This document shows, piece after piece, positions 1-47,916 of a DNA stretch of 47,916 nucleotides (position 1 is the first letter of the stretch; every line of letters starts with the position of its first letter). The translations under genes were made by a program, and so were the position numbers. Below the pieces are notes generated by a model that had not been told where the DNA came from, did no database searches, and saw nothing but the letters and a program-made list of their open reading frames with translations. Source of the stretch: Acidobacteria bacterium RIFCSPLOWO2_02_FULL_67_21 (GTDB lineage Bacteria > Acidobacteriota > Vicinamibacteria > Vicinamibacterales > UBA2999); the NCBI GenBank assembly GCA_001767195.1, contig MEKU01000007.1:1-47916 (forward strand). Direction: 5' to 3'.

Positions 1-264
1 CGCCGCGCCGTCATACGTCACGCTGTACGGCGTCACCGTCACCACCGCGTTCGCCTTCGCAATCGCGTCGGCCACCGTCCCGGTCGCCGCGGTGTGGTTC
101 GCATCCCCGGCAAAGCTCCACGCATCGGCGCCGTAGCTGCCGGCGGCCGTGTGCGTCGTCCCCGCCAAGTCGAGCAGGCTCGTCAGGGTCTCCCCCGCCG
201 CGCCCGTGGCCGTGCCGGTCGCCGTGTGCGCCGCGCCGTCATACGTCACGCTGTACGGCGTCAC
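1..264 (-). repeat. 76-codon tandem repeat at the truncated end of the giant protein
   Basis: The 36 bases at 1-36 recur exactly at 229-264, an offset of 228 bases or 76 codons. Both copies encode the start of a repeat unit containing SVTPYSVTYDGAA or VTVTPYSVTYDGAA. The unit between them resembles the YDG/MBG-type repeats of secreted bacterial proteins. Because the second copy is cut by the window edge, the array probably continues to the left. Confidence 0.85.
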
Positions 265-3200
265 GCTGATGACTGCGTCGGCCTTTCCGATCGTGAAGCT
301 CGAGGTGTTGTAAGTGACGTCGTAGTTTCCCAGGACATCCGCCGGGGCGAGCGTCGCCGAGATCGTGTACGGACTGCTTCCCACCGTCTCTCCGGCCGTC
401 CGGCTGTAGGCGGCAGTCACGCTCTCGCCCGCCAGGAAGCCAGTCAGCGTCCCACTGAAGCTCGGGTCGCCAGCTCCGTAGATCTTCGACGCCGGATTCG
501 GGGTAACGCTTGCCGCCTTCGGGTCGATCGTGAGGGTCGCCGCCGCACTGTCGCCCGCCAGGTAGTTGTCGTTCCCTGCAAAATGCGCCACGACCGTGTA
601 GCTGCCCGCAGTGACCGGCGCCTGGGGATTGCCGCTGTAGGTCAGCGTCACCGGCCCGAGCACCTCCGCCGGCGTCAGCACGCCCGCCGCCGTCCCGGTC
701 CCCGCGTGCGCGGTCCCGTCATACGTAAACGTCCCGCCCGTCGCCGTCACCGTCGGCGTCGCCTTGTTGATCAGCAGCGTGCCGTTGACGAAGCTGAACG
801 TGTAGTTTCCGGCGGCCAATGAGCCGAGCGCCGCGGCAATCGGGTAGCTTCCGACTCCACTCGTCTGCATTGCGGTCGTCGTCAGGGCTGGCGCCCCGCT
901 CACGCCGCTCGTCGTGAGCGTCTCGCCGTTCTTGAACCCGCTGTAGGTCGCCGTAAATGTAGGATTGCTGCCGCCGTACTCCCGCGACTTGCTATCGGCG
1001 GCCACCGTGAGCGTCGCCTTGTTCACCGTCAGCGTGCCGTTCACGAAGACGAAGCTGTAGTTTGCGGACGCCAGCGATCCGAGGGCAGGAACAATCGAGT
1101 AGGTGCCCACCGGACTGGCCGCCGTTGCCGCAGTTGCAAGCACCGGCGCCCCGATAACGCCGCTCGTCTCAAACGTCTCGCCGTTTATGAACCCGCTGTA
1201 GGTCCAGGTGAATGGCGAGTCTGCGTCTCCATAGATCCGCGACTGGTTGTCAGCGGTCACCGTCAACGCCGCCCTCGTGATGTTGAAGGCCTGCACGACG
1301 TCCACCGCGGCGTTGTAGTTGGTATTCCCCGCCTGCGACGCCGTAATCGTGCACAGGCCGGCGCCTGTCAGGTGCACGGTCGCTCCGGACACCGTGCACG
1401 GTCCGGTGGCAGTAAGGCTCACGGCCAGACTGGAGCTAGCGGTTGCCAGTACCTCGAAATCGGGATCACCAAATGTCCTGTCGCCCAGCGGCGCACCCAA
1501 GTCGAGCGCCTCGACAGTCTTGAAATGACTGCTTGCGGTGTACGCGTCGCCGTTATATCCCGCAAAGGCGTACAGCGTGCCGTTGACGGCCGCCGCACCC
1601 GCCGACGCGCGGGCAGTGTTCAGCGCCGGCATTACGGACCACTGATTGGCGATCGGGTCGTAGGCGAATACCGAGGCAAGCAGACCGCCGGTTCCGGCGC
1701 CGCCGATGATGTAGATCCTTCCGTCGGCGGCCACGGCCGCCGCGCTGTAACGGCCCACCGGCATCGGCGCCCGCAGGCTCCAGCTGTTCGTCGCCGGGTC
1801 GTAGGCTTCCACCGAGCTGGTGACCACCCCACCCGCCGAGTAGTCGATCCCGCCAAGAACGTACAGCTTGCCGCTTGCCGCGGCGACCGTCGGCGCGGCG
1901 CGGCTGACGAGCATCGGCGCCTTGGTGCTCCAGCTGTCCGCGCCAATGTCATAGGCTTCCACGAGCGTTCCGCCCCCGCCACCCACGGCGTAGAGCACGC
2001 CGTCGACGACGCCGACGCCATGGCTCGACCGGGCCGTCGGCATCGAAGCGCGCGTCTGCCACGTGTTCGTCGCGGGGTCATACGCCTCATTAGCCCCGGT
2101 CACAGGACCGCAGCCGAGGGACCCGCCGACGACATACAGCTTGCCGTTCCAGACGCCCGCGCGCGCGGCCTCGCGCGCCGTCGGCATCGCCGCCCGCGAG
2201 CTCCACGTATTGGTGGCTGGATCGTACGCCGTCAGCAGGTTCAAGTAGCTGCACAGGTGGCCGGCGTCCCAGCCGCCGGCGGCGTAGACCAGCCCGTTGA
2301 GCGCAGCATACGCAGGCGCGGTTTGCGGCGCCGGCAGATTCGCCTTATAGGTCCACTGCGTCGGTAAGCCGAGCGTAACCGTCTGATCCGCCTTCACGAC
2401 GGTCAGCACGCCATTGACGAACGCAAACGCATAGTTGGCTGAGGCCAGGGTCCCGAGTGCCGGGGTGATGGGATACGTCCCCACCGCACTCGCCGGATTC
2501 GCCGTCGTCGTCAGCAGTGGTGCGCCCGTCACTCCGCTTGTGGCGAGGGACTCACCGCTGACGAATCCGCTGTACGTAGCGCCGAATGTGGGATTCGCCG
2601 TTCCGTAGGGGCGTGATGCGCTGCCGGCGGTCACCGTCAGCAACGCCTTGTTGACCGTCTGCGCGAAAGCGCCGCTGCTCGGGTCGAATGTCGAGTTGCT
2701 ACTGTAATCAGCCGTGATCGTGTGGCTTCCAGCGGTCAGGCTCGATGTACTGAAACTTGCCTGCCCGGCGGCATTGAGCGCCAGGGGCCCCGCAAGCGTC
2801 GTCGTGCCTTCTTTGAACGTCACGGTCCCCTGTGTAACCGCCGAGCCAAAGGATGCGACCGTCGCCGTGAACGTGACGGATTGGCCGAAGATTGACGGGG
2901 TGGCGCTCGATGTCACGGACGTCGTGGTTGCGGCCGACACGGTCAGGCTCGCATTTCCACTGAGCACGCCATTGGATGCTGTGATCGGTGTCGTTCCGGG
3001 CGCGAGGCCCGTGGCGACGCCACTCAGGTTGATCGTGGCGACAGCCGGATTGCCGCGGCTCCAGCTCACCTCGCCGAGCGCCAGCGCATCGTTGGTCCCC
3101 ACCGCCGGATAGCAGAAGCTGGGCGGACAGCCGCCAATCGTGTAGACGACGCCGCCGATCGCGACACTCACCGCGCTGTGCCGGGGATTGATCATCGCCG

Positions 3201-6200
3201 GCCCGGCCGACCATGTGTTGGTCGCCGGATCGTACACGTCTACGCGGCTCATCACCGTGCCGTCGTAGCCGCCCGCCACGACAATCTTCCCGTTCACCCC
3301 GGCTGCCGCGGCATAGCCGCGCCCGGTCGGCAACGGCGCCGAGGTCGACCAGGTGTTTGTGCCGGGGTCGTACACCTCCACCGTTGTCTGCAACGGGAAG
3401 CCGCCCATGGCGTACAGGCGGTCGTTGACCACCGCCACGGCAAAGTCCGTGCGCGCGGTGAGCATCGGCGCCAGCGTTGTCCAGCTGTCAGTCGCCGAGT
3501 CGTAGGCCTCGAGATTCCGATAGACCGTCGTCTGTGTGCCGTTCTGCCCGCCCAGCACGTAGAAGAGCCCGTTGATCGCGGCTCCCTGTGCGCCAAACCG
3601 CGCCGTCGGCATCGGCGCCAGCGTTGTCCACGTGTTCGTTACCGGGTCGTAGGCATCCAGCGCTGCCGTTGTATTGCCGTTGCACACGCCGGTGCAGCCG
3701 CCCGCGGCATAGAGCACGTTATCCACGACCCCGACGGCACCTTGGTACCGCGGCCGCGGCATCGCCGGCTTGCTGCTCCAGCTGTTCGCCCCCGGGCTGT
3801 AAGCATCCACATTCGCCGTTATGCCCGTCACGTTGCTGGCAATACCGCCCACCGCATAAACCTGCCCCTGCAGCCCTGCGGCGGCAAACGAGGTCCGCGC
3901 CGGCATCGCCGCCTTGTTCGTCCACGTCCCAGGCCCCGCTGCCAGCGGCCGCGACGACCCGTCGCTGAACGTCCCGGTCGCCGTAAACGCCTGCGTCCCG
4001 CCCGGCTGGATCGTCGCGTCCGCGGGCGTCACCGCAATCGCCTGCAGCTGCGGCACATCCCGTACCGTGATCCGCACCGTCTCGCTGTCCACCCCGCCAA
4101 AGCCATCGCGCACTTCGAAGACGACATCAAAGAACGCCGAGGGGCCGGTCGAGACGTTGAACCCGGGCGTCCACCGAAACGCCTTGGTGCTCGCATCGAA
4201 TGTCGCGCCAGCGGGCAGCGGCGCTGCTGTAAACGTCAACAGATGGCCGTCCGGGTCCGACGCGCCCACGACAAATCCCAGCAAATCGCCTTCATTGACC
4301 GCCTTGTTGCCGATCGTCCCGAGAACGGGCGGCTGATTGACCACAAGGTGCGCGGCCGATCCGCTGCTCGAATTGAAGTTCGTGCTGCCGCTGTAGTCAG
4401 CAGCGATGGTGTGGCTTCCGACGGAGAGCGTCGATGTGCTGAAGCTCGCCTGCCCTGCCCCATTCAACGCGATGGGACCTGCGAGGACGGTCAGACCGTC
4501 CCTGAACGTCACCGTCCCCTCGGTGACGACCGATCCGGTGAGCGTGGCGGTAAACGTAACCGGCTGGCCGGACGTCGAGGGATTCGCGCTCGACGTGACC
4601 GCGGTGGTGGTGTTCGCCTTGTTCACCGTCTGCGCCAGCGAGGAGGACCCGCTTGGGTTGAAGTCTCCGTCGCCGTCGTACGAAGCCATGATCGAATGCG
4701 ACCCGACTGCCAGGCTGGCGCCGCTGAACGTCGCCACACCGCCGCTCAGCATGCCCGTGCCCAATGTCGTCGCGCCGTCCTTGAAGGTCACCACTCCACC
4801 GGGCGTCCCTGACCCCGGCGACACGGCTGCAACCGTCGCGGTGAACACGACCTGGCCGAAGACGGATGGGGTGGCCGAGGCGACGAGGGCCGTCGTCGTA
4901 TCAGCTTTGTTGACCGTTTGAGCAAGCGCCGCCGTCGCGACACCCGAAAAGCTGCCGTCGCCCGAGTACGTCCCCGTAATCGAATGGGGGCTGCCGGACG
5001 CCATCAGCGCAGATGTCGTCAGCGTGGCCTGTCCAGAGGCGTTGAGCGGTGCGGATCCTAGGTTCGTCGCTCCGGCAAAGAAGTCCATGCTGCCGGTAGG
5101 CGTGCCAAGCCCGGGTATCACCGACACAACGGTTGCGGTGTACGTGACCGGCTGCCCTGACACAATCGGAGCGGGATCGGCACCTTTCAGGATATAGAGC
5201 TTGTTGACGCCTGATTCCCGGTACAGCAGCGTCAGTCGATTGGCGACGATGTCGTAGGCGGCGTTGAAATTGTCCTGGATGGCAGCCGCGGCGGGCGGCC
5301 CGCCGCTGGGCGTGAGATGGGTGTACGACGTCGTGCCCCCCAGGCCGTTGGCGTTATTGATCTGCCAGATGCTCGAACCGTTTTCGATCAGGAATGCACG
5401 GTTGTTCACCGGATCGTAGGCCGATGGCTTGTACAAGAATCCGGCGGGCGAGCCCACTGCGCCTTCCGGAATGAGGTTGATCCAGGTCGGCGCCCCGCCG
5501 AGCCCGTTTGCGTTGGTCAGTACATAGACCGCATTGGTTGCCGTTCCTGTTCCCTGGGCTCCACCACCGGCAACGATCAGTCGATTATTCGCAACGTCGT
5601 AGAACGAGCTCGGTCCATACTGGCCGGGCGCCATTGTGCCCGTGGTCGTGAGCTGACTCCAGACGGCCGGCCCGCCGTAGCCGTTCGCATTCGTCAGCAC
5701 CCAGACATCAGGAAACGTCGCGCCACCCGATCCGCCGCCGTTCTGGCCCCCGAAGACAATCAGCCGGTTGTTGATCGGGTCGTAGCCACGCGCCATCGCG
5801 TGGCGGGATCCGGGCGGCCCACCAGTCGTCTGCAGTTTTGACCAGGCAGGAGCTCCGCCGACGCCATTGGCGTTTTTGAGCAGCCATACCTCGTTGATGA
5901 TCGGGAAACAGCCGCCAAAGCACCCGCCATAGATCATCAGCGTGTTCGTGTTTGGGTCGTACGCCGAGGCTGCATTCTTCTGCGCTGGATGACCCGAGGC
6001 CGTGTACTCCGTCCATGAAGATGGACCAAAGCCGTTCGCGCCGCTGATCACGTACGGATTCGAGGTGTCAGCACTGGACACGATTAACGTGCCCGCACCA
6101 TCGCTGGTGACAGAGGGACCGTAATTACCGAATGCCGGGCCCGCGCCGCTCGGCGTCACCTGCACCCACGACTGCATCGCCGGACTCGTATACAGGCCGG

Positions 6201-8700
6201 CGGTCGTGCTGACCTGCGTGACCATCTGGTCCGGGCTGAGGGTTCCCGTACTCCCGAAGAACGAGCTCGTGCCGTTGTACGTGGCTCTCACCGGGTGGTT
6301 GCCGAGACTCAAGGAGTTCGTCGAATACGATGCCTGTCCCGCGCTGTTCAACGCCGTCGTCGCGACCGGAGTTCCATCAACAACGAAAGTCACGTCTCCG
6401 CCCGCTGCCGGCCCGCCGCCGGCTGACGTCACGGTCGCCGTGAGATACACAGGCTGGTTGAGCGCCGACGGGTTCGCCGACGAGGAGAGCGTGGTTGTCG
6501 TGTTTGCCTGATTGACCGTGAGAGCCGCCGAGCCGCTGCTCGCGCCAAAACTCCCGTCGCCTGCGAAGCTGGCCCCGACGCCCGTTGGATATATGCCGGC
6601 GTTCACCCCAACGAGGCTGACGTTGTTGAGCGTCGCGACGCCGCTGGCGTTCGTCGTTGCGCTGCCGACCCCTGTGCCGTTCCGCGTAAAGTTCACCGTC
6701 TTGCCGGCGACCGGCGAGCCGCTCGAGGTCAGTTGCGCCTGGAAGGTTGTCGTTCCGCCCGCGAGCCCGGTGGCCGGGGAGACCGACAGGGTGGTGGCCA
6801 CCGGCGCGCTGACATTCAGTGTGAACGTTGTGCTTCGGGTGAGTCCAGCGCAGGCGTAGTACGGGTACGTCCCCGACACCGTAACGGTCACTGGATAGGA
6901 TCCGGTGGGTGTTGTACTGCTGGTGCTGATGGTGATCTTCAGATTGCCAGGACCAAACCAATAGTCGGTGTCCCGGTAGAAGTACTGGTAGTAATAGTTA
7001 AACGAGTAATAGTTCATGCTGGCCGAAGCGCCGGCCGGCAGCCCGGATGGGTATGCGATGTTGGGAAAGCAATAGTTGTTGAAATCCGTTGTCAGCCGGA
7101 GTGTGTACGTTGCCGAATTGCCTCGGATGACCGGATTCGGGGTCTGCGTTCCGATAGCGATCGTCAACGAATTGTCGGTGAAGGTCATCTGGGCCGTCGA
7201 CACAGAGCCGGTGGCTGTCAGGATGAAGCGAACGCCAAGATCGTGTTCCTCGGGCTGAAAGCCGTCGTCGACAATCCGGCCGGAGCCGTCCGCCATGACC
7301 ACCCATGTGCGGTCACCGTGCGTCAGCGGGGATTCCTGCAGCACCAGAGTCACAGGCTCATTCGGCTGCCAGCCGGCGCCGCTGATCGTCACCGTTTCGC
7401 CTGGCATGTAGTCGGCTTTGTCGGTCGTCACCGTGGCGAATCCGTACAGCTCCGCACTCGTCCGAGGGCTGCTGCCGTCCGCGGATGCGCTACCGCCAGC
7501 GATCAGCAGCAAACCGTCCGCAGGTCCGGTTCGAACGAAGTTGTCGGGTGCGAAGCTCAGCGACGCGGCGGTGGCCCATGCGCGCGCACTGGTTGGTACC
7601 TGGGCCGCGACAAAAGTGCCCTCGCCCTCCCAGGGAATGTACAGCTCCGCTGTGGCCGTGGCGACACCGCCGCCGCTGCCGCCAAGAATCAGCACCGTAT
7701 TGTTGTGCGGCAGGCGAAACGCCAGGTGGTTCTGCCTGGGCGTCAGTAACGCGGATCCAGCGGGGACAAACGCGGCAGTCTCCGGATCGAAGATCTCAGC
7801 CGAACTCAGATCGCCGCTGTTGTTGGTGCCGCCGGCCACGAGCACCCGACCATCAAGCAGCGTCGTTGCCGAATGTCCCGCTCGCGAGGTGAAAAGCGAG
7901 GGACCGGCCGTAACGCTGCCATCCATCGGGTCATACACATCGACTGAGGCGAGGGCATTGGTACCATCGTGGCCACCAACAATAAACAGACGGCCGCCGC
8001 CAATGAAGGCAGCGGCATGCGCCGTGCGGGCGGTGCTCAACGTCCCGTCTAGAACGACGAAAGTCTCGATCGACGGGTCGAAGACCTCCAGCGTTGCCGT
8101 GGGTACCTCGCTATCCTCCCCACCGGCCACGAGAACCTTGCCGTCCGGGAGCAGCGTCGCCGTATGGCTCGATCGTGCCGTCGACATCGCCCCCGCGGCC
8201 GACCATGCGTTCGCCGACGGGTCGTAGAGTTCTGCGGACGTCACGGCACGGCCGTCGGCCCCGACACCCCCGACGACGAGCACACGCCCGTCGGTCAGCA
8301 GCGTCGCCGTATGATGCGCGCGCGCTTCGGCCATCGGCGTAACGGCCAAGAAGCCTTCCGCGTCGGGACTGTATCGCTCCGCCGAGGTGGTCACACCCGC
8401 GCTGGTGATCCCGCCTGTCACGAGCACCTTGCCATCCAGCAGGAGCGCGGCCGCAGCGCCCACTCGCCCCTCGGCCATCGGGCCGGTAGCGCTCCACGTG
8501 TTGGAAGGAACGCTGGGAAATGACGCCCTCACCGAGACAAGGAGGCCGTACGAGGCCACCACCAGCACGGCTCCCGCCAGGGGAATCCTGCCCCGCCAGC
8601 GCCGCCATGTGGCACGACATGCCGCGACAGGTCGCATGACGAGTGGAAACCTGCGCACACCGGCAGGGTGGCGCGTTAGTGAAGGGGGAGCTTCGCGCAT
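1..8700 (-). CDS. Giant membrane-anchored surface protein with Ig-like/MBG domains and four Kelch propellers (partial, C-terminus outside window)
   Basis: The minus frame is open for 2900 codons from an ATG at 8700 (GGAGAGG ribosome site about 6 bases upstream) to the window edge; I checked every codon and found no stop. Residues about 39-57 are a hydrophobic anchor after an Arg-rich start. Order: a Kelch block of seven blade motifs such as DGRVLVVGG (about 66-421); a TDKADYMPGETVTISG-type domain (about 422-); Bacterial Ig-like domains; a second propeller (about 833-1173); more Ig-like domains; an He_PIG-like domain with NEGDLLGF; a Big_2-like domain interrupted by a third propeller (about 1586-1876); an MBG domain; a fourth propeller (about 2109-2399); then MBG/YDG-type repeats to the edge. 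No catalytic domain is visible. Likely a cell-surface adhesion or display protein; its ligand is unknown. Its regulator candidate is the divergent gene at 9129. Confidence 0.9.
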   Translation of the reverse strand, partial: MREAPPSLTRHPAGVRRFPLVMRPVAACRATWRRWRGRIPLAGAVLVVASYGLLVSVRASFPSVPSNTWSATGPMAEGRVGAAAALLLDGKVLVTGGITSAGVTTSAERYSPDAEGFLAVTPMAEARAHHTATLLTDGRVLVVGGVGADGRAVTSAELYDPSANAWSAAGAMSTARSSHTATLLPDGKVLVAGGEDSEVPTATLEVFDPSIETFVVLDGTLSTARTAHAAAFIGGGRLFIVGGHDGTNALASVDVYDPMDGSVTAGPSLFTSRAGHSATTLLDGRVLVAGGTNNSGDLSSAEIFDPETAAFVPAGSALLTPRQNHLAFRLPHNNTVLILGGSGGGVATATAELYIPWEGEGTFVAAQVPTSARAWATAASLSFAPDNFVRTGPADGLLLIAGGSASADGSSPRTSAELYGFATVTTDKADYMPGETVTISGAGWQPNEPVTLVLQESPLTHGDRTWVVMADGSGRIVDDGFQPEEHDLGVRFILTATGSVSTAQMTFTDNSLTIAIGTQTPNPVIRGNSATYTLRLTTDFNNYCFPNIAYPSGLPAGASASMNYYSFNYYYQYFYRDTDYWFGPGNLKITISTSSTTPTGSYPVTVTVSGTYPYYACAGLTRSTTFTLNVSAPVATTLSVSPATGLAGGTTTFQAQLTSSGSPVAGKTVNFTRNGTGVGSATTNASGVATLNNVSLVGVNAGIYPTGVGASFAGDGSFGASSGSAALTVNQANTTTTLSSSANPSALNQPVYLTATVTSAGGGPAAGGDVTFVVDGTPVATTALNSAGQASYSTNSLSLGNHPVRATYNGTSSFFGSTGTLSPDQMVTQVSTTAGLYTSPAMQSWVQVTPSGAGPAFGNYGPSVTSDGAGTLIVSSADTSNPYVISGANGFGPSSWTEYTASGHPAQKNAASAYDPNTNTLMIYGGCFGGCFPIINEVWLLKNANGVGGAPAWSKLQTTGGPPGSRHAMARGYDPINNRLIVFGGQNGGGSGGATFPDVWVLTNANGYGGPAVWSQLTTTGTMAPGQYGPSSFYDVANNRLIVAGGGAQGTGTATNAVYVLTNANGLGGAPTWINLIPEGAVGSPAGFLYKPSAYDPVNNRAFLIENGSSIWQINNANGLGGTTSYTHLTPSGGPPAAAAIQDNFNAAYDIVANRLTLLYRESGVNKLYILKGADPAPIVSGQPVTYTATVVSVIPGLGTPTGSMDFFAGATNLGSAPLNASGQATLTTSALMASGSPHSITGTYSGDGSFSGVATAALAQTVNKADTTTALVASATPSVFGQVVFTATVAAVSPGSGTPGGVVTFKDGATTLGTGMLSGGVATFSGASLAVGSHSIMASYDGDGDFNPSGSSSLAQTVNKANTTTAVTSSANPSTSGQPVTFTATLTGSVVTEGTVTFRDGLTVLAGPIALNGAGQASFSTSTLSVGSHTIAADYSGSTNFNSSSGSAAHLVVNQPPVLGTIGNKAVNEGDLLGFVVGASDPDGHLLTFTAAPLPAGATFDASTKAFRWTPGFNVSTGPSAFFDVVFEVRDGFGGVDSETVRITVRDVPQLQAIAVTPADATIQPGGTQAFTATGTFSDGSSRPLAAGPGTWTNKAAMPARTSFAAAGLQGQVYAVGGIASNVTGITANVDAYSPGANSWSSKPAMPRPRYQGAVGVVDNVLYAAGGCTGVCNGNTTAALDAYDPVTNTWTTLAPMPTARFGAQGAAINGLFYVLGGQNGTQTTVYRNLEAYDSATDSWTTLAPMLTARTDFAVAVVNDRLYAMGGFPLQTTVEVYDPGTNTWSTSAPLPTGRGYAAAAGVNGKIVVAGGYDGTVMSRVDVYDPATNTWSAGPAMINPRHSAVSVAIGGVVYTIGGCPPSFCYPAVGTNDALALGEVSWSRGNPAVATINLSGVATGLAPGTTPITASNGVLSGNASLTVSAATTTSVTSSATPSIFGQSVTFTATVASFGSAVTQGTVTFKEGTTTLAGPLALNAAGQASFSTSSLTAGSHTITADYSSNSTFDPSSGAFAQTVNKALLTVTAGSASRPYGTANPTFGATYSGFVSGESLATSGVTGAPLLTTTANPASAVGTYPITPALGTLASANYAFAFVNGVLTVVKADQTVTLGLPTQWTYKANLPAPQTAPAYAALNGLVYAAGGWDAGHLCSYLNLLTAYDPATNTWSSRAAMPTAREAARAGVWNGKLYVVGGSLGCGPVTGANEAYDPATNTWQTRASMPTARSSHGVGVVDGVLYAVGGGGGTLVEAYDIGADSWSTKAPMLVSRAAPTVAAASGKLYVLGGIDYSAGGVVTSSVEAYDPATNSWSLRAPMPVGRYSAAAVAADGRIYIIGGAGTGGLLASVFAYDPIANQWSVMPALNTARASAGAAAVNGTLYAFAGYNGDAYTASSHFKTVEALDLGAPLGDRTFGDPDFEVLATASSSLAVSLTATGPCTVSGATVHLTGAGLCTITASQAGNTNYNAAVDVVQAFNITRAALTVTADNQSRIYGDADSPFTWTYSGFINGETFETSGVIGAPVLATAATAASPVGTYSIVPALGSLASANYSFVFVNGTLTVNKATLTVAADSKSREYGGSNPTFTATYSGFKNGETLTTSGVSGAPALTTTAMQTSGVGSYPIAAALGSLAAGNYTFSFVNGTLLINKATPTVTATGGTFTYDGTAHAGTGTAAGVLTPAEVLGPVTLTYSGNPQAPVTAGSYTVVAHFAGNDNYLAGDSAAATLTIDPKAASVTPNPASKIYGAGDPSFSGTLTGFLAGESVTAAYSRTAGETVGSSPYTISATLAPADVLGNYDVTYNTSSFTIGKADAVISVTPYSVTYDGAAHTATGTATGAAGETLTSLLDLAGTTHTAAGSYGADAWSFAGDANHTAATGTVADAIAKANAVVTVTPYSVTYDGAA

Positions 8701-9128
8701 GGCTGCCTCTCCGTGGGGAAAAAACCTCGCATGCCCGGTTCGCAGACAGGATCTGAGCGCCGAACGGCAACGAATGTGCCGCGGCGAACGCCGCGATCTC
8801 CGGACCTTGTGGACGGAAACGGACGGCTCTCGATGCGCAGGGCCGCAGAAATCCACAGGGCGCGCGAACTATCCGACAGACTTCGGTCGCCGGACCGCGC
8901 TTTTCGCGTACAGTTCTGTCGCCGCAGTGCGATGCGCATCACCGTTTTGAATTCGTGTGAACGGATCTGATCCGAGGCGCAGCATCCTACCAATAGGCGC
9001 ACGGCTAGAGCAACGGATCAGTGATGACAAATCACGACAACCACCTGTTTTCTGGCCGGACATTACGAATCTGTCGGCCGATCGGCGGGGCGATTCGCAG
9101 TTGTTGTAATCTGTCGCCGAACGCCTCC
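8701..9128. promoter_or_regulatory. Divergent intergenic region with four TCTGTCG sites
   Basis: This 428-base region separates the start of the giant surface protein from the start of the transmembrane regulator and contains no convincing gene. TCTGTCG occurs on the plus strand at 8915-8921, 9070-9076 and 9110-9116 and on the minus strand at 8874-8880. The three plus copies extend to TCTGTCG(G/C)CG. Such density is unexpected by chance for a 7-mer in this length, so an operator role is plausible. I could not assign a clear -35/-10 pair. Confidence 0.5.
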
Positions 9129-10484
9129 ATGTCAGAACGAGCGCGCCTCGATTCGTGGAAGGAGATCGCCAGGTATCTGGGGCGCGATGTTCGCACCGTC
9201 CTCCGGTGGGAGCGCCGGCGGGGCCTCCCTGTCTACCGTGTGCCCGGGGGCAAGCTTCCCCGTGTGTTCGCGTACCGGGACGAACTGGATCGGTGGCTGG
9301 AGGGCCCGGGAATCTCCGAGGTACCGGCCAGCGCTGCCCCGCCGGTGCTGCAGGAGAGGGACGGCGATTCCCCGGCTCTCCCGCCACAGCCGGTGCTCAC
9401 CATACCGCTCCAGAACGACTCCGCACGCGTTTCGTTGACGACGTCGGCCCGGTGGCGCTTTGCCGCGTCCACCCTCTTTGCCGCCACACTGCTTGCAGCG
9501 GCCGCCGCGGGACTCTGGGCCTGGACAAGGCCGCCCGTGCCGCTGGCGCGACTCGTGGCAGCCGGCAACGAACTGCAAGGGATCGATGCGATGGGCGCGA
9601 CGCGGTGGACGCATCGAGACGCCTCCGCAGCGCTGGCCGTCCTGGCCTCGAAGATTGCCGACACCGACGGCGACGGCCGCGACGAAGCGCTCGCGTCGAT
9701 CGAGCTTACCGACAGCAGCGGGGCGCACCGCGGCGGCGTGCTGACGGCGTTTGACGCAGGCGGCCGGGTACGGTGGTCCTATGCCGCCGACGATCGCATC
9801 CTGTTTCGCGACGGCACCTACGGCCCGCCATGGGCGGCCGCCGAGCTGTCGGTCTACCGGACGGGCGGTCGCACGCGGATTGCCTGGGCCGTCCACCACT
9901 TCACCTGGTGGCCCAGCCTGCTCCTGACGTTCGATGCTTCTGGCAACCGGCTTGGGATGTTTGTCAACTCCGGCTGGATCCGCGGCGCGTCTCCCTCGGC
10001 GGACGGCCGATTCCTGCTGGCCACTGGTGTGGCTAACAGTTGGCAGGCGTACTTCGTCGCGGTGCTCGACGCCGACAACCCCACCGGCCATTCCCCTGAG
10101 CCGGCGGGCAGCCCCATGGAATGCCTCAAGTGTCCGGCAGGCGATCCCGTCGCCTATTACGTGCTCCCCCGCACCGACGTCAGCCGTCATCACACGTTCC
10201 CGTCCTTCGGGCCGAGCGTGATGACGTTTCGCGACGGAACCCTGCAGGTACACTCGCCGCAGAACGATGGGCCGACCGTCGCGGCCGTCATCTATGAATT
10301 CGCCACGGATCTGACGCTGCGGCAAGCGCGGTTTGCCGATTCCTTCTGGGAGTGGCACCGTCTGCTCGAGGCGGACGGCAAGCTGGATCACCCCGCCGAC
10401 CGCTGTCCCGAGCGTCAGGGTCTGCAGGTACAGCTCTGGACGCGGACCGCGGGCTGGCAGACCATCAACGTGCCCGTGCGCTGA
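9129..10484 (+). CDS. Transmembrane one-component regulator: N-terminal HTH, one TM helix, extracytoplasmic VCBS-like sensor region
   Basis: The protein has 451 residues from the ATG at 9129. An in-frame ATG at 9021 would add 36 residues unlike the family and would absorb two of the TCTGTCG sites, so I prefer 9129. Residues 1-58 form a MerR/excisionase-like DNA-binding domain (DSWKEIARYLGRDVRTVLRW, then a basic wing and AYRDELDRWL). Residues about 109-132 form one membrane helix. The remainder should be periplasmic and includes DTDGDGRDEAL (about 178-188), a calcium-binding VCBS/FG-GAP-like loop, and aromatic-rich segments. The domain order is ToxR-like: membrane-bound transcription control by an extracytoplasmic signal. 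It is divergent from the giant surface protein, which makes that gene its likeliest target; this is inference. REP-like hairpins follow the stop codon. Confidence 0.75.
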   Translation: MSERARLDSWKEIARYLGRDVRTVLRWERRRGLPVYRVPGGKLPRVFAYRDELDRWLEGPGISEVPASAAPPVLQERDGDSPALPPQPVLTIPLQNDSARVSLTTSARWRFAASTLFAATLLAAAAAGLWAWTRPPVPLARLVAAGNELQGIDAMGATRWTHRDASAALAVLASKIADTDGDGRDEALASIELTDSSGAHRGGVLTAFDAGGRVRWSYAADDRILFRDGTYGPPWAAAELSVYRTGGRTRIAWAVHHFTWWPSLLLTFDASGNRLGMFVNSGWIRGASPSADGRFLLATGVANSWQAYFVAVLDADNPTGHSPEPAGSPMECLKCPAGDPVAYYVLPRTDVSRHHTFPSFGPSVMTFRDGTLQVHSPQNDGPTVAAVIYEFATDLTLRQARFADSFWEWHRLLEADGKLDHPADRCPERQGLQVQLWTRTAGWQTINVPVR

Positions 10485-10486
10485 GG

Positions 10487-10580
10487 AGGCTCGGCTAAAG
10501 CCGAGCACTACGTACCCGTCCGAGGCTCGGCTAAAGCCGAGCACTACGTACGTGTACGTAGTGCCCACCTTCAGGTGGGC
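10487..10580. repeat. REP-like hairpin elements, locus A (two direct, one inverted copy)
   Basis: Copies lie at 10487-10515 and 10523-10551 (period 36), each a GCTCGGC/GCCGAGC hairpin with AAA-containing loop followed by ACTACGTAC. A third copy in opposite orientation at 10554-10580 keeps the TACGTAGTG flank but has a different stem, GCCCACC/GGTGGGC. The hairpins lie between the convergent ends of the regulator and the aminotransferase and could also act in bidirectional transcription termination. Confidence 0.85.
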
Positions 10581-10586
10581 CCACGA

Positions 10587-11873
10587 CTACAGCAGTTCCC
10601 GCACGGCGGCGACGAAGCGGGCGATCTCTTCGACCGTCGTGTAAATACCAGGAGTCACCCGCAGGCCGCTGAAGTCGAACACCGGGCCCGGCAGGCGCTG
10701 GCTGACGGCGGCGCTGATGACGATGCCGTGCTTCTCGAGCAACTGCGGGACGAGCGTCGCCGCGTTCACTCCTTCAATCGCGAACGTCGCCAGCCCCCAG
10801 CCTTCCCCCTGATCGAGGTTGGTCAGGAGCCGGACACGCGGATGCCCGGCCAGGGCGTCGGCCCACCGCCGTGTCAGATACCTGAGCCGGGCAGCCTTGC
10901 GCGCGGCGCCAACCGTGCGGTGAAAGGCCAGCGCCTCCGGGATTGCCGCCCGTGCGGCCGCGGGGTGCGTCCCAATCTCCTCGAACTTGTGAATGTCGCC
11001 GCGCAGGCTGTCGAGCGCCGCATACAGCGGCCAGAGCCGCTCGACCCGATCGCGCCGCACGTAGAGGAACCCGGTGCCGTGCGGCGCCATCAGCCACTTG
11101 TGGAGGCTCGTGCCGTACAGGTCGCACTCGAGATCGCGGATGGCGAACGGAAAGTGGCCGACCGCCTGCGCCCCGTCGACAATCGTGATGATCCCGCGCT
11201 CGCGCGCCAGTCTCGCCAGATCTCGAACCGGGAACAGCTGCCCGGTCACATTCGTCAGGTGGCAGAAGTGCAGCACCCTGGTGCGCGGCGTGATCGCCTG
11301 CTCGAACCGCTGCACCAGCTCGCCCGATCCGGCCGGCACAGGAAACTGTACCCGCCGGATGATGATGCCCTCCCGGCGCGCGCGCTGGTCCCAGAGCCAG
11401 AGCATCCGCGGATAGTCCTGGTCCGTCGTCACGACCTCGTCGCCGGCACGCAGGTCGATCCCGTACTGCGCGACATGCAGCGCCTCGGTGGCGTTGCGGG
11501 TCAGCGCCAGCTCGCCCGGATCGCATCCGAACTCGGCGGCCACCTGCTGCCGGACGGCGTCGAAGCGCTGTTCGAGCAGCGTCCGGTAATGCACGGGAAG
11601 CCGGTTCGTCTCGTCGAGATACCGCTTGAAGACTTCGTGGACAACCAGCGGGGACGGGGAGCTGTTGCCGTTATTGAGGTTGATGAGCGCCGGGTCGAGC
11701 ACGAAGGCGCGGCGTACTTCGCGCCAGTACGACTCGTCCTGCGCCACCGCGTCGGCGTCCCGATCGCCCAGTGCGGTCGTCGCCTGACCGAGCGCCGAGA
11801 GGCGGACCGACGTCGCAACGGTCGCCCCACCCAGTACGGCCGATGCACGCATGAAGCCCCGCCTCGTCCACAT
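10587..11873 (-). CDS. Tat-exported class V PLP aminotransferase (isopenicillin-N epimerase-like)
   Basis: The protein has 428 residues and starts at the ATG at 11873. It opens with a twin-arginine signal (TRRGFMRASAVLGG) followed by a hydrophobic stretch, so export of the folded PLP enzyme to the periplasm is predicted. The fold-type I, class V signature is clear: NATEA at 127-131 (phosphate binding), VDGAQAVGH at 232-240 (the Asp that holds the PLP ring nitrogen), and TSLHKW with the Schiff-base Lys at 259. The family contains cysteine desulfurases, isopenicillin-N epimerases and related lyases; no persulfide Cys loop stands out, so the epimerase-like branch fits best and the substrate is unknown. 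The gene stands alone, convergent with the regulator and divergent from the DinB-like gene. Confidence 0.85.
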   Translation of the reverse strand: MWTRRGFMRASAVLGGATVATSVRLSALGQATTALGDRDADAVAQDESYWREVRRAFVLDPALINLNNGNSSPSPLVVHEVFKRYLDETNRLPVHYRTLLEQRFDAVRQQVAAEFGCDPGELALTRNATEALHVAQYGIDLRAGDEVVTTDQDYPRMLWLWDQRARREGIIIRRVQFPVPAGSGELVQRFEQAITPRTRVLHFCHLTNVTGQLFPVRDLARLARERGIITIVDGAQAVGHFPFAIRDLECDLYGTSLHKWLMAPHGTGFLYVRRDRVERLWPLYAALDSLRGDIHKFEEIGTHPAAARAAIPEALAFHRTVGAARKAARLRYLTRRWADALAGHPRVRLLTNLDQGEGWGLATFAIEGVNAATLVPQLLEKHGIVISAAVSQRLPGPVFDFSGLRVTPGIYTTVEEIARFVAAVRELL

Positions 11874-44148: not shown

Positions 44149-45031
44149 TCTGGACCTGCTCGCGGAGCTTTTCGAGCTCCGCCTTGCCGTTGATGATCAG
44201 CTGCGACACCTGCAGGCCGTCCGCCTTGGCGCCGATCGTGTTGACCTCGCGGTTCATCTCCTGCAGCAGGAAGTCGAGCTTGCGCCCGCACGGCTCGTCC
44301 GCGTCCTGCAGCGCCTCCCAGTGCGCGAGATGCGCGCGGAAGCGCGTGAGCTCCTCGCTGATGTCCGACCGGCCGGCGACGCGGATGATCTCCTGCGCGA
44401 TCATCGCCTGATCGACCGGCAGCTCGAACGTGAGCTCGCGAATCCGCTCCTGCAGCCGCTGCTCCAGCGTGGTGCGGCCCCGATCCGCCGCCGCCGCCAG
44501 CGCCTCGGCCAGCCCGGCGAGCGTCCGCAGACGTGCCTCGAAGTCGGCGCGAAGATGCTCCCCTTCGCGCACCCGCATGGCATCGAGATCCGCCAGGGCC
44601 TGCTCCACCGCCGCCTCGACGCTCGCCGCAAGGTGCGCCTCGACGGCCGGGTCGGTCTCGGCCCCGCGATCGCGTATCGTCACCGCCTGCGGCAGCCGGA
44701 GCAGGTCTCCGGGCGTCAGCGCGCCCGAAATCAGCCCCCGCGCCCGCGCCTGATCGAGCGCCGCCGACAGCGCCTGCGCGAACTCCGCATTCAGTTCCAC
44801 CGTCGGCGTCACCGTGCTGCGCAGCTGCACGGCAATCGCCAGCTCGACGCGCCCGCGCGCCAGCCGCTTCTGCAGCACCGCCCGGATGCGGGGCTCCAGG
44901 CCCGCCAGCGACTGCGGGCTCCGCAGCTGAACGTCGAGAAACCGGTGGTTCACGGCGCGGATCGTGATGCCGATGGTGGCGCGCTCGTCCTCATGGGTGA
45001 GCGAGGCGAATCCGGTCATGGACTTGATCAT
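44138..45031 (-). CDS. yicC: YicC family endoribonuclease
   Basis: The protein has 297 residues. It begins MIKSMTGFASL, the invariant start of the family, then AVNHRFLDVQLRSP. The C-terminal DUF1732 part contains RFRAHLAHWEALQDADEPCG, RKLDFLLQEMNREVNTIGAK and ends near NGKAELEKLREQVQNVE. YicC proteins are RNases that in Escherichia coli influence small-RNA turnover; that is family knowledge. The start overlaps the msbA-type stop by one base (TGATG). Confidence 0.95.
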   Translation of the reverse strand: MIKSMTGFASLTHEDERATIGITIRAVNHRFLDVQLRSPQSLAGLEPRIRAVLQKRLARGRVELAIAVQLRSTVTPTVELNAEFAQALSAALDQARARGLISGALTPGDLLRLPQAVTIRDRGAETDPAVEAHLAASVEAAVEQALADLDAMRVREGEHLRADFEARLRTLAGLAEALAAAADRGRTTLEQRLQERIRELTFELPVDQAMIAQEIIRVAGRSDISEELTRFRAHLAHWEALQDADEPCGRKLDFLLQEMNREVNTIGAKADGLQVSQLIINGKAELEKLREQVQNVE

Positions 45032-46800
45032 CAGATTTCAACTTCCGTGGGCTCGTCCTGGAGCTGCAACTCGTAGAGTTTCGCATATGCGCCGCCGCGC
45101 GCCATCAGTTCGTCGTGGGTCCCCGTCTCCGCGATGCGGCCGCGCTCGAGCACCACGATCGTGTCGGCGCGGCGGACCGTGGACAGCCGGTGCGCGATGA
45201 CGAAACAGGTGCGGTTGAGAATCAGGGTCGAGAGCGCGTCCTGGACGAGCATTTCCGACTCCGCATCGAGCGACGAGGTCGCTTCGTCGAGCACGAGAAT
45301 GGGCGAATCGCGCAGGATGGCCCGGGCGATCGCGATCCGCTGCCGCTGCCCGCCCGAGAGCCGCTGGCCGCGCTCGCCGATCGTCGTGTCGTACCCGTCA
45401 TCCAGCCGCGCGATGAACTCATGCGCGTGCGCGGCGCGCGCGGCCGCCTCGATCTCCTCGCGGCCGGCCTCCGGCCGGCCGTAGGCGATGTTCGCGGCAA
45501 TGGTGTCGTCGAAGAGCACCGTCTCCTGCGTGACGATGCCGATCTGCGACCGCAGCGACGCCAGCGTGACGTCCCGCACGTCGTGGCCGTCGATCAGAAT
45601 CGCGCCGTCCGTTACATCGTAAAACCGCGGAATCAGATTGACCAGCGTCGTCTTGCCGGCGCCGCTCCGCCCGACGACGGCGAGCATCTGGCCCGGCCGC
45701 ACCGCGAAGCTGACGCCATCGAGCGTCGCCCGGCCGGCCTCCCCGGACGCCGCACCCGGGCGCGGGATCGACGCGTAGGAGAACCGGACGTCGCGGAACT
45801 CGATGCGCCCGCCGAACGGGGGCAGCGCGATCGCTCCGGGCCGGTCCTGCACTACGTTGTGCAGATCGAGAATCTCGAAGATGCGCTCGCCGGCCGCCAT
45901 CGCCTGCTGCAGGTCGGCGTTGACGCGGCTCAGCTTCTTGGCCGGGGCGTACATCATGAACAGCGCGGCGATGAACGCGGTGAACTCCCCGGTCGACAGC
46001 CGCCCGGCCGCAATCTCCTGCGTGCCGTACGCCAACGCGCCGACAAACGCCACGCCGCCGATGAACTCCATCAGCGGTGGCAGCACCGACAGCACGCTGG
46101 TGACCTTCATGCTCGTGCGGTAGAAGTGATCCGAGGCGCGCTCGAACTTCGCCGTTTCGCGCCCCTCCGCGCCGAATGCCTTGACGATCCGGTGGCCGGT
46201 GATCGCCTCGGCGCTCACGTGCGACATCTGCTCGAGCGCCTCCTGGCTGCGGCGGGCGGTCCGGCGCACGCGCTGCCCCAGGCGCACGAGCGGGTAGACG
46301 ACGAGCGGCGCGCCGGTGAGGCAGACGAGCGCCAGTCGCGCGTCGTAGTAGAAGAGCAGCGCCGCGAACCCGACGAGCGCCAGCGATTCGCGCGTCAGGT
46401 CTCCGATCGTCTCGGACACCGACCGCTGCACCTGCCCGACATCGTTGGTGATCCGCGACATCAGCCGGCCGGTCGTCTGCACCGAGAAGAAGGCGACCGA
46501 CTGGCCGAGAATGTGGCGAAAGAGCACATTCCGGAGGTCCCGTACGACGCGCTGCCCGACGTCGGTCATCAGGTACCCGGAGACGTACGCGCTCACCCCC
46601 TTGACGAGGTACACGACGAGAATCGTCGCGGCAATCGGCAGCAGGCTCTGGCGGCTCGGCAGGACCTCGTCGAAGATCGGCTGGATCAGCGCCGCGATGC
46701 CGGCCGACGCCGCGCCGTACACCACCATCGCCACCAGCGCCCAGGCCAGCCGCGCGCGGTGGGGCCGCGCGTACTCGAAGAGTCGAAAGAAGACCGTCAC
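45031..46800 (-). CDS. msbA: MsbA-type lipid exporter: ABC transporter with fused membrane and ATPase domains
   Basis: I start at the GTG at 46800, which overlaps the stop of the glycosyltransferase (GTGA) and gives 589 residues, normal for MsbA half-transporters. The open frame continues further but that part is antisense-like. Six membrane helices cover about 15-320 (RPHRARLAWALVAMVVYG onward). The ATPase has Walker A VVGRSGAGKTTLVN, signature LSGGQRQRIAIARA, Walker B SPILVLDEATSSLD, and the late HRLSTVRRAD. MsbA flips lipid A-core or related lipids across the inner membrane as a homodimer. A short Pro/Gly/Ala insertion (about 355-367) lies before the Walker A strand. Confidence 0.93.
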   Translation of the reverse strand: MTVFFRLFEYARPHRARLAWALVAMVVYGAASAGIAALIQPIFDEVLPSRQSLLPIAATILVVYLVKGVSAYVSGYLMTDVGQRVVRDLRNVLFRHILGQSVAFFSVQTTGRLMSRITNDVGQVQRSVSETIGDLTRESLALVGFAALLFYYDARLALVCLTGAPLVVYPLVRLGQRVRRTARRSQEALEQMSHVSAEAITGHRIVKAFGAEGRETAKFERASDHFYRTSMKVTSVLSVLPPLMEFIGGVAFVGALAYGTQEIAAGRLSTGEFTAFIAALFMMYAPAKKLSRVNADLQQAMAAGERIFEILDLHNVVQDRPGAIALPPFGGRIEFRDVRFSYASIPRPGAASGEAGRATLDGVSFAVRPGQMLAVVGRSGAGKTTLVNLIPRFYDVTDGAILIDGHDVRDVTLASLRSQIGIVTQETVLFDDTIAANIAYGRPEAGREEIEAAARAAHAHEFIARLDDGYDTTIGERGQRLSGGQRQRIAIARAILRDSPILVLDEATSSLDAESEMLVQDALSTLILNRTCFVIAHRLSTVRRADTIVVLERGRIAETGTHDELMARGGAYAKLYELQLQDEPTEVEI

Positions 46801-47507
46801 TCGCTGATTCGGTACCGCACCAGGACCCAGAGCGCCACGAACCCGTCGCGCCAGCCGATCTTCTTGCCCTCGTCGTAACCCCGGCCGTCGTAGGTAATCG
46901 GCACTTCGTACACGCGGAAGCCGCGCTTGAAAATCTTCGCGGTAATCTCCGGCTCGATCCCGAAGCCGTTCGAGCGCAGCGTCATCGACCGGAGCACCTC
47001 CGTGCGCATGACCTTGTAGCAGGTCTCCATGTCGGTGAGCATCGTGTTGTACAGCACATTGGTCAGCAGCGTCAGCAGCCGGTTGCCGAGGTAGTGCGAG
47101 AAGAGAAACACCCGGTGACGGCCGAGAAATCGGGAGCCGTACACGACGTCCGCGCGCCCCTGGCAGATCAGCTCGATCAGCATCGGGAGCTCCTCCGGCG
47201 AGTACTCGAGATCGGCGTCCTGAATCACCACCAGATCCCCGCGCACTTCGGTGAACCCGCGGCGCAGCGCCGCGCCCTTGCCGGCGTTCCGGGGCTGCCG
47301 CACCAGCGTGAACCCGAGCTCCTGTCGCAACTCCTCGAGCCGTTCCCGCGTGCCGTCGGTCGAGCCGTCGTCGACGACGATGAGCTGGATCCGCAGCGGA
47401 ATGGCAAGGACGCGCCGCACGATCTCCTCGATGGTAGTCCCCTCGTTGAAGGCGGGCATCACCACCGACAGCAGCGGGTCGTGCAGCGCGCCGCGAATCC
47501 GCGACAT
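46797..47507 (-). CDS. Family 2 glycosyltransferase (DPM1/DPG synthase-like)
   Basis: I start at the ATG at 47507, which overlaps the galE stop by one base (TGATG), giving 236 residues; a start at 47558 would read back into galE. The GT2 core is clear: LSVVMPAFNEGTTIEEIVRR, VVDDGSTDGT, RNAGKGAALRRG, and the metal-binding QDADLEYSPEELP, then VVYGSRFLGRHR. These match the polyprenyl-phosphate mannose/glucose synthase-like group that uses nucleotide sugars at the membrane. There are few hydrophobic segments (about LGNRLLTLLTNVLYN). With galE upstream and msbA downstream it belongs to an envelope glycan or lipid module. Confidence 0.93.
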   Translation of the reverse strand: MSRIRGALHDPLLSVVMPAFNEGTTIEEIVRRVLAIPLRIQLIVVDDGSTDGTRERLEELRQELGFTLVRQPRNAGKGAALRRGFTEVRGDLVVIQDADLEYSPEELPMLIELICQGRADVVYGSRFLGRHRVFLFSHYLGNRLLTLLTNVLYNTMLTDMETCYKVMRTEVLRSMTLRSNGFGIEPEITAKIFKRGFRVYEVPITYDGRGYDEGKKIGWRDGFVALWVLVRYRISE

Positions 47508-47916
47508 CAGACGCGCGCCCCCGCGAACCCGCGTGGATGCGCCGAATGCCACTTCCACGCGTCGGCGACGATCGTCTCGAGCCCCGGCCGGGCGGGGGCC
47601 CAGCCGAGCTCCTCCCGTATGCGCGCCGCCGACGCATAGAGGACCGCGGGATCGCCCGGGCGCCTGCCGGCCGGCCGTGCGGGAACCGGCCGGCCGACCA
47701 CCCGCCCGACGGCCGCGAGCACGTCCCTGACGGAGGAAGGGCGCTCCGTGCCCACGTTATATACCGCGGACGCGCCGCCCGCTTCGAGGTGGCTGAGCGC
47801 GCGTACGTGCGCGTCGGCCAGATCCGCCACGTGCACGTAGTCGCGGAGGCACGTGCCGTCGGGCGTCGGATAGTCCTCACCGCAGATCTCGAACGGCGCG
47901 CCGCCGGCGGCCGCCG
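47507..47916 (-). CDS. galE: UDP-glucose 4-epimerase, C-terminal part (N-terminus outside window)
   Basis: The frame enters from the right edge of the window; about 135 codons are present. FEICGEDYPTPDGTCLRDYV then HVADLADAHVRAL is the substrate-binding signature of GalE, followed by VYNVGTERPSSVRDVLAAV and the end domain LGWAPARPGLETIVADAWKW. GalE interconverts UDP-glucose and UDP-galactose with bound NAD. The NAD-binding GxxGxxG half and catalytic YxxxK lie beyond the window. The last residues overlap the GT2 start by one base. Confidence 0.92.
   Translation of the reverse strand, partial: AAAGGAPFEICGEDYPTPDGTCLRDYVHVADLADAHVRALSHLEAGGASAVYNVGTERPSSVRDVLAAVGRVVGRPVPARPAGRRPGDPAVLYASAARIREELGWAPARPGLETIVADAWKWHSAHPRGFAGARV

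Follow-up and report, generated by a model that had tools for sequence, protein, structure and literature searches.

How can a whole beta-propeller be accommodated within an immunoglobulin-like (Ig-like) domain a fraction of its size? This question is raised by a giant open reading frame (ORF), P0001, on the minus strand of a 47,916-nucleotide stretch of DNA from Acidobacteria bacterium RIFCSPLOWO2_02_FULL_67_21 (the window; bases 1-47916 of contig C7, MEKU01000007.1). The frame stays open from 8856 to 1, over at least 2,952 codons, and runs past the contig start. A Pfam search found Kelch_1 (PF01344; 1.1e-146) in 16 stretches of the encoded protein, and Big_3_5, MBG_2 and Big_2 were also matched. 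One Kelch block (block 1) is N-terminal and three (blocks 2-4) are internal. A first-pass annotation had proposed that the internal blocks are nested within Ig-like domains as a modular plug-in architecture. We found that the nesting is real, as demonstrated by the two complementary halves of the Big_2 domain around block 3. P0001 is probably a secreted multi-Ig protein with whole beta-propellers inserted in loops of single Ig-like domains.

Block 3 is nested within one Big_2 domain

The flanks of block 3 were identified as complementary parts of Big_2 (model positions 3-33 and 35-79), and neither flank is a whole domain. Scored singly against Big_2, they gave 19.6 and 26.5 bits. Joined, they gave 48.3 bits over model positions 3-79 (gathering cut-off 22.8), and only in this joined form was a whole-model match above the cut-off reached. 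The joined, insert-free sequence is matched end to end by Big_2 domains of leptospiral LigA/LigB (PDB 8gyr, 2mqg) and of the teneurin-like 9pt5, tandem arrays of the same Ig-like family. Judged by sequence, block 3 thus lies within one Big_2 domain.

Structure prediction with AlphaFold returned six blades for both block 3 and block 4, with a blade pLDDT (predicted local distance difference test) of mostly 86-98 and 74-97, respectively, which agrees with the full propellers that had been read from their repeated motifs. The closest solved folds to block 3 were NS1-BP, KEAP1 and SAKe6. For NS1-BP (5yy8), the template modelling (TM) scores by target length were 0.88 and 0.90 for blocks 3 and 4; SAKe designs also matched, and solved Kelch domains in general matched the two models at about 0.80-0.90 by target length. 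In the block 3 model, the propeller follows strand B (model residues 23-28) and precedes strand C (320-324). From these low-confidence parts of the model, together with the Big_2 alignment, block 3 would be an insert in the B-C loop. The alignments given to AlphaFold were shallow (9 and 4 rows), and the C-half had few rows because the intact Big_2 domains that we added misplaced strand C or the C-halves.

The same Big_2 loop in relatives

We then built Big_2 models, and half-domain models, from 37 intact domains. Among 1027 non-redundant ORFs of the fetched loci, the half models found 44 intact N-C pairs (gap below 25 aa) and 10 split pairs with a gap of 288-443 aa, with none in between; the loci were chosen by resemblance to the query, and these counts are therefore not frequencies in nature. 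When joined, the flanks of the relatives scored 27-55.6 bits, above the Big_2 cut-off. Propellers within Big_2 were seen again in at least ten genomes, and such recurrence in independent genomes means that the arrangement is neither a matter of chance nor an assembly fault of the window contig. The composite is nevertheless rare: among 396 genomes drawn from the phylum, full-length matches to two nested models were found in G120, G058, G000, G011, G024 and G170.

The cargo at this site varies. Kelch stands alone in the window, G011, G024 and G085, and follows a lipocalin-like domain in G058, G091, G120 and G089; G085 also has a lipocalin-like domain and Kelch with a second lipocalin-like part, spanning a frame break. 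In G047 (locus L048) the site holds a propeller that matches PD40/WD40-like models weakly, and in an uncultured Acidobacteria contig (L072) it holds RCC1 repeats (2.2e-36). G170 (L198), which belongs to a different family within the phylum, has two adjacent Big_2 domains that are both split at this loop: the first contains a propeller that matches DUF5050 and Ldl_recept_b below threshold, and the second contains Kelch. At least four propeller types thus occupy one and the same Big_2 loop, which strengthens the plug-in idea. Different propeller families at one loop point to repeated insertion; the Kelch inserts overall do not form one clade, with the deeper forks weakly supported. We consider it rather likely that the Big_2 B-C loop, which is CDR1-like (complementarity-determining region 1), is a general natural socket in Acidobacteriota, filled repeatedly by unrelated propellers and by the lipocalin-like plus Kelch pair, for modular display of binding wheels on an Ig rod.

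The lipocalin-like plus Kelch composite aligns over about 510 aa in genera of three families, with invariant residues in the cargo and in both host halves, and its Kelch parts form one clade (support 100/99). Its first part, conserved in L109, L051, L116 and L114, covers about 110 aa behind the Big_2 N-half, has no Pfam match and always stands beside Kelch within Big_2. Its pattern suggests that it is probably all-beta and lipocalin-like, the latter being our own reading of that pattern, and it may be a new domain family.

Other loops are used as well. By eye, Kelch blocks in G085 (L149) precede the final strand of one Big_3_5 domain and that of an MBG_3-like domain, and the last-strand loop is also used in L050. 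In our by-eye classing, 12 of the 19 internal or sub-terminal Kelch blocks with at least four blades are nested in Big_2, Big_3_5, MBG or QTI domains, the last being the MBG-like host of block 4. The others lie between whole domains (BACON/FN3-like context, L112 and L115) or after a signal peptide or other propellers.

Some observations on these loci were made in passing. In G004 (L050, protein about 1273-1583), a Laminin_G_3 (concanavalin-like) domain, by eye, separates strand B from strand C in a Big_3_5 domain, the same nesting trick with a non-propeller cargo. The frame break in G085 (L108/L149 on G085:C35, near L108:5697-5797) falls within the second nested cargo and may be a sequencing error or real. 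Both split Big_2 domains of L198 (G170:C15:11000-25000) belong to a 2992-aa protein (ORF 2522-11497), whose C-terminal stretch we take to resemble a gingipain-type (C25) peptidase. The record of L070 (JAIEMQ010000074.1), titled 'Cyanobacteria bacterium', is probably mislabelled; its genome, G024, is placed in the family of the window genome.

Blocks 2 and 4 and their hosts

The hosts of blocks 2, 3 and 4 belong to three different Ig-like families, and two loops are used. The first-pass annotation had assumed the same kind of loop throughout the protein, and this part of it did not hold: block 3 is placed in the B-C loop of Big_2, and blocks 2 and 4 come after strand A in the other two families. 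Block 2 is flanked by 'STTAGL' and ADPAPIVSGQPVTYTATV, which read contiguously as TTTAVTSSANPSTSGQPVTFTATL in the intact Big_3_5 copies of P0001 itself. Against Pfam Big_3_5, the 3' flank alone scored 67.5 bits and the joined flanks 65.8; the Pfam model begins after strand A and therefore cannot decide the nesting of block 2. Of the profile searches that had been suggested, those with Kelch and Big_2 confirmed the propellers and the split host, and the putative interruption of Big_3_5 fell outside the Pfam model. A relative of block 2 that is 50% identical was found in G009 at the same position, after 'TTTTIQ', and G085 also has a relative.

For block 4, the intact QTI copies of L050 read LNQTITFGALADKVFGDPDF, and the window has 'ADQTVTLG', about 290 residues, and then PLGDRTFGDPDF. 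Strand A is hence contiguous in the intact copies and separated from its domain at block 4. Insert-free homologues of the hosts, which the first-pass annotation had proposed to look for, were accordingly available for both blocks. Automatic split detection with Big_3_5 and QTI domains gave no split pair, since a single strand is too short to score, and truncated matches were then read by eye.

In G011, Acidobacteria bacterium RIFCSPLOWO2_12_FULL_68_19 (loci L046/L069), which belongs to another genus, block 4 and its two flanks together are 79% identical (the block alone 81%). Differences at codon positions 1/2/3 were 0.14/0.10/0.43 in the Kelch block and 0.21/0.16/0.48 in the host. Third positions therefore differ 3-4 times as often as second positions in cargo and host alike, which demonstrates constraint on the protein sequence of both. 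The sequence 'LGAP' is duplicated at the junctions of block 4; we rejected it as a target-site duplication, as it is too short and too old to call. No relative of block 4 came up in a viral scan.

Proposed architecture, alternatives and genomic context

In Kelch propellers, the first strand ('TWTNK' or 'QWTYK' here) closes the last blade, so that the ends of the propeller are adjacent and fit into a loop. Each propeller of P0001 would fold independently, its first and last strands sharing one blade, and the split Ig-like host would close around it with both of its halves. Two short tethers would then hold the propeller in a fixed orientation, pointing sideways from the Ig chain. The Big_2 B-C loop would serve as a reused socket, which separate lineages filled independently with different propellers, and in two other Ig-like families the loop behind strand A would hold blocks 2 and 4. 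With several propeller faces along one rod, P0001 would most likely act as a multivalent extracellular binding protein, either an adhesin or a scavenger of glycans or proteins.

Several observations weigh against this architecture. The Big_2 halves were predicted with a pLDDT of only about 30-60 and the block 4 host with 42-77, so that the modelling that had been proposed as a check settled the six-bladed folds and spoke neither for nor against strand completion across the insert. Blocks 2 and 4 separate just one short strand from their hosts, which could be a linker, and some relatives (L112, L115) carry Kelch between whole domains. No ligand or surface anchor was seen; the N-terminus is signal-like by eye, and the C-terminus lies beyond the contig end. 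The same facts, including a block 2 host that scores no better with strand A added, would suit propellers strung between domains, with short Ig flanks as degenerate remnants or linkers that do not co-fold. We consider this unlikely, because in all cases found the two parts of Big_2 complement each other exactly and their core residues are conserved, the lipocalin-like plus Kelch composite is conserved across families, and a 30-residue remnant of strands A-B would hardly have been kept in so many lineages. It is likewise unlikely that the nested propellers serve as enzymes of the galactose-oxidase or mutarotase kind and not as binding modules. Weak matches to GlxA and YjhT/NanM models would fit, and Pfam NANM passes its cut-off on repeats summed over the whole protein (77.5 vs 45 bits), but the NCBIfam matches are far below curated cut-offs (GlxA 88 of 800 bits) and the best solved relatives are protein-binding Kelch domains.

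The repeatedly filled socket must also be set against a single old insertion that was later copied and diverged, with its cargo rebuilt in place. The shared site, the single clade of the lipocalin-like plus Kelch form and the Kelch orthologues in G011 are in keeping with such a history. It is nonetheless not a likely one, given propellers of four dissimilar families in this position (Kelch, RCC1, PD40/YVTN-like and YWTD/DUF5050-like), Kelch inserts that are not one clade, albeit with weakly supported deeper forks, and two sockets with different cargo in G170. An assembly or binning artefact, in which repeats were misjoined in metagenome contigs, might be suspected from a repetitive gene at a contig end in a 107-contig assembly. 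It is hardly credible for a frame open over 2952 codons, with block 4 and both its flanks present in another genome and the Big_2 arrangement in at least ten.

Domain insertion into Ig-like folds is already known. In pilus and surface adhesins of Gram-positive bacteria, the CnaA/CnaB folds accept vWA, thioester and CnaB domains as inserts (PMC12617251). As in P0001, the host is Ig-like and part of a multi-domain protein, and one of its loops holds an entire functional domain; the CnaA/CnaB inserts are often adhesive (PMC12617251). Here, in contrast, the host is Big_2 (also Big_3_5 and MBG-like), the cargo is a beta-propeller and the phylum is Acidobacteriota; a Pfam search of P0001 up to E = 1 matched no Cna family. 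In a survey of 48,551 insertions in ECOD, the insert was smaller than the host in 77%, with medians of 115 and 199 residues, and positions were evenly spread (PMC13114784). The A1-B-A2 architecture and an inserted domain with close ends, as expected of a propeller, are shared with those insertions (PMC13114784), whereas here inserts of about 288-443 residues sit in hosts of about 80 residues at a fixed Big_2 loop. N-terminal or stand-alone Kelch propellers of the same genomes are of the same blade family but are not inside another domain. In open-licence literature we found nothing relevant on Kelch or other propellers nested in bacterial Ig-like domains or Big_2, and no description of a propeller in Big_2.

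If our reading is true, a very small Ig-like domain carries, in one preferred loop, cargo about 3.5-5 times as large as itself. This would run counter to the size relation that is usual for inserted domains, and one loop would have been reused for unrelated propellers. Such an arrangement would provide engineers with a ready-made design for rigid multivalent display. It would also give a handle on the poorly known giant exported proteins of soil bacteria, on which profile annotation fails because the hosts look like fragments.

The features of P0001 are listed in Table 1. Since the window begins at contig base 1, the C-terminus of the protein is missing. Translation probably starts at 8700 or 8637, and the stretch that comes next, IPLAGAVLVVASYGLLVSV, is hydrophobic and by eye resembles an export signal; the start region lines up with the L046 orthologue in a by-eye alignment; the protein is thus probably exported.

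Table 1. Positions of the Kelch blocks and their Ig-like hosts in the window
Feature	Position	Strand	Evidence and remarks
Giant ORF P0001	1..8856	-	2952 aa as read; open at contig end
Block 1, N-terminal Kelch propeller, un-nested	7447..8499	-	Kelch_1 matches
Strand-A motif VSTTAGL of Big_3_5, ahead of block 2	6193..6213	-	Intact Big_3_5 copies in P0001; outside Pfam model
Block 2, divergent Kelch propeller (galactose-oxidase-like blades), about 6 blades	5182..6192	-	PF24681 4.6e-16
Remaining Big_3_5 (ADPAPIVSGQPVTYTATV...)	4897..5181	-	PF16640 67.5 bits, model 3-88; 8-95 of extended model
Big_2 N-half, strands A-B	3937..4047	-	PF02368 model 3-33, E 8.8e-4; half model 44.5 bits
Block 3, six-bladed Kelch propeller, putatively in Big_2 B-C loop, P1641-1928	3073..3936	-	Kelch_1 matches; AlphaFold
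Big_2 C-half (EVSWSRGNPAVATI...)	2932..3072	-	PF02368 model 35-79, E 6.3e-6; half model 40.1 bits
Strand-A motif KADQTVTLG of MBG-like 'QTI' domain, ahead of block 4	2368..2394	-	Intact L050 copies; conserved in L046
Block 4, six-bladed Kelch propeller, P2164-2454	1495..2367	-	Kelch_1; AlphaFold; Foldseek; 81% identical in G011
Remaining QTI domain (APLGDRTFGDPDFEV...)	1270..1494	-	Own hidden Markov model 102.2 bits, model 10-80, strand A missing locally

Genome-wide, 15 Kelch_1 matches were found, every one within the giant gene, and blades of the block 2 type also occur in a second protein of the source genome, on contig C64. Recent duplication among the propellers of the window was considered and rejected, as DNA self-comparison gave no strong block-to-block match. 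Contig ends interrupt both the giant gene and its G011 orthologue, which fits genes so rich in repeats. The divergent gene adjoining the giant ORF (window 9021-10484, plus strand) has a helix-turn-helix-like N-terminus and a membrane stretch, with no Pfam match at 1e-5; its product is possibly a regulator. Further away, at 45031-47880 on the minus strand, lies a gene for a 949-aa ABC exporter-like protein (ABC_membrane and ABC_tran), which has about 380 additional N-terminal residues with no Pfam match.

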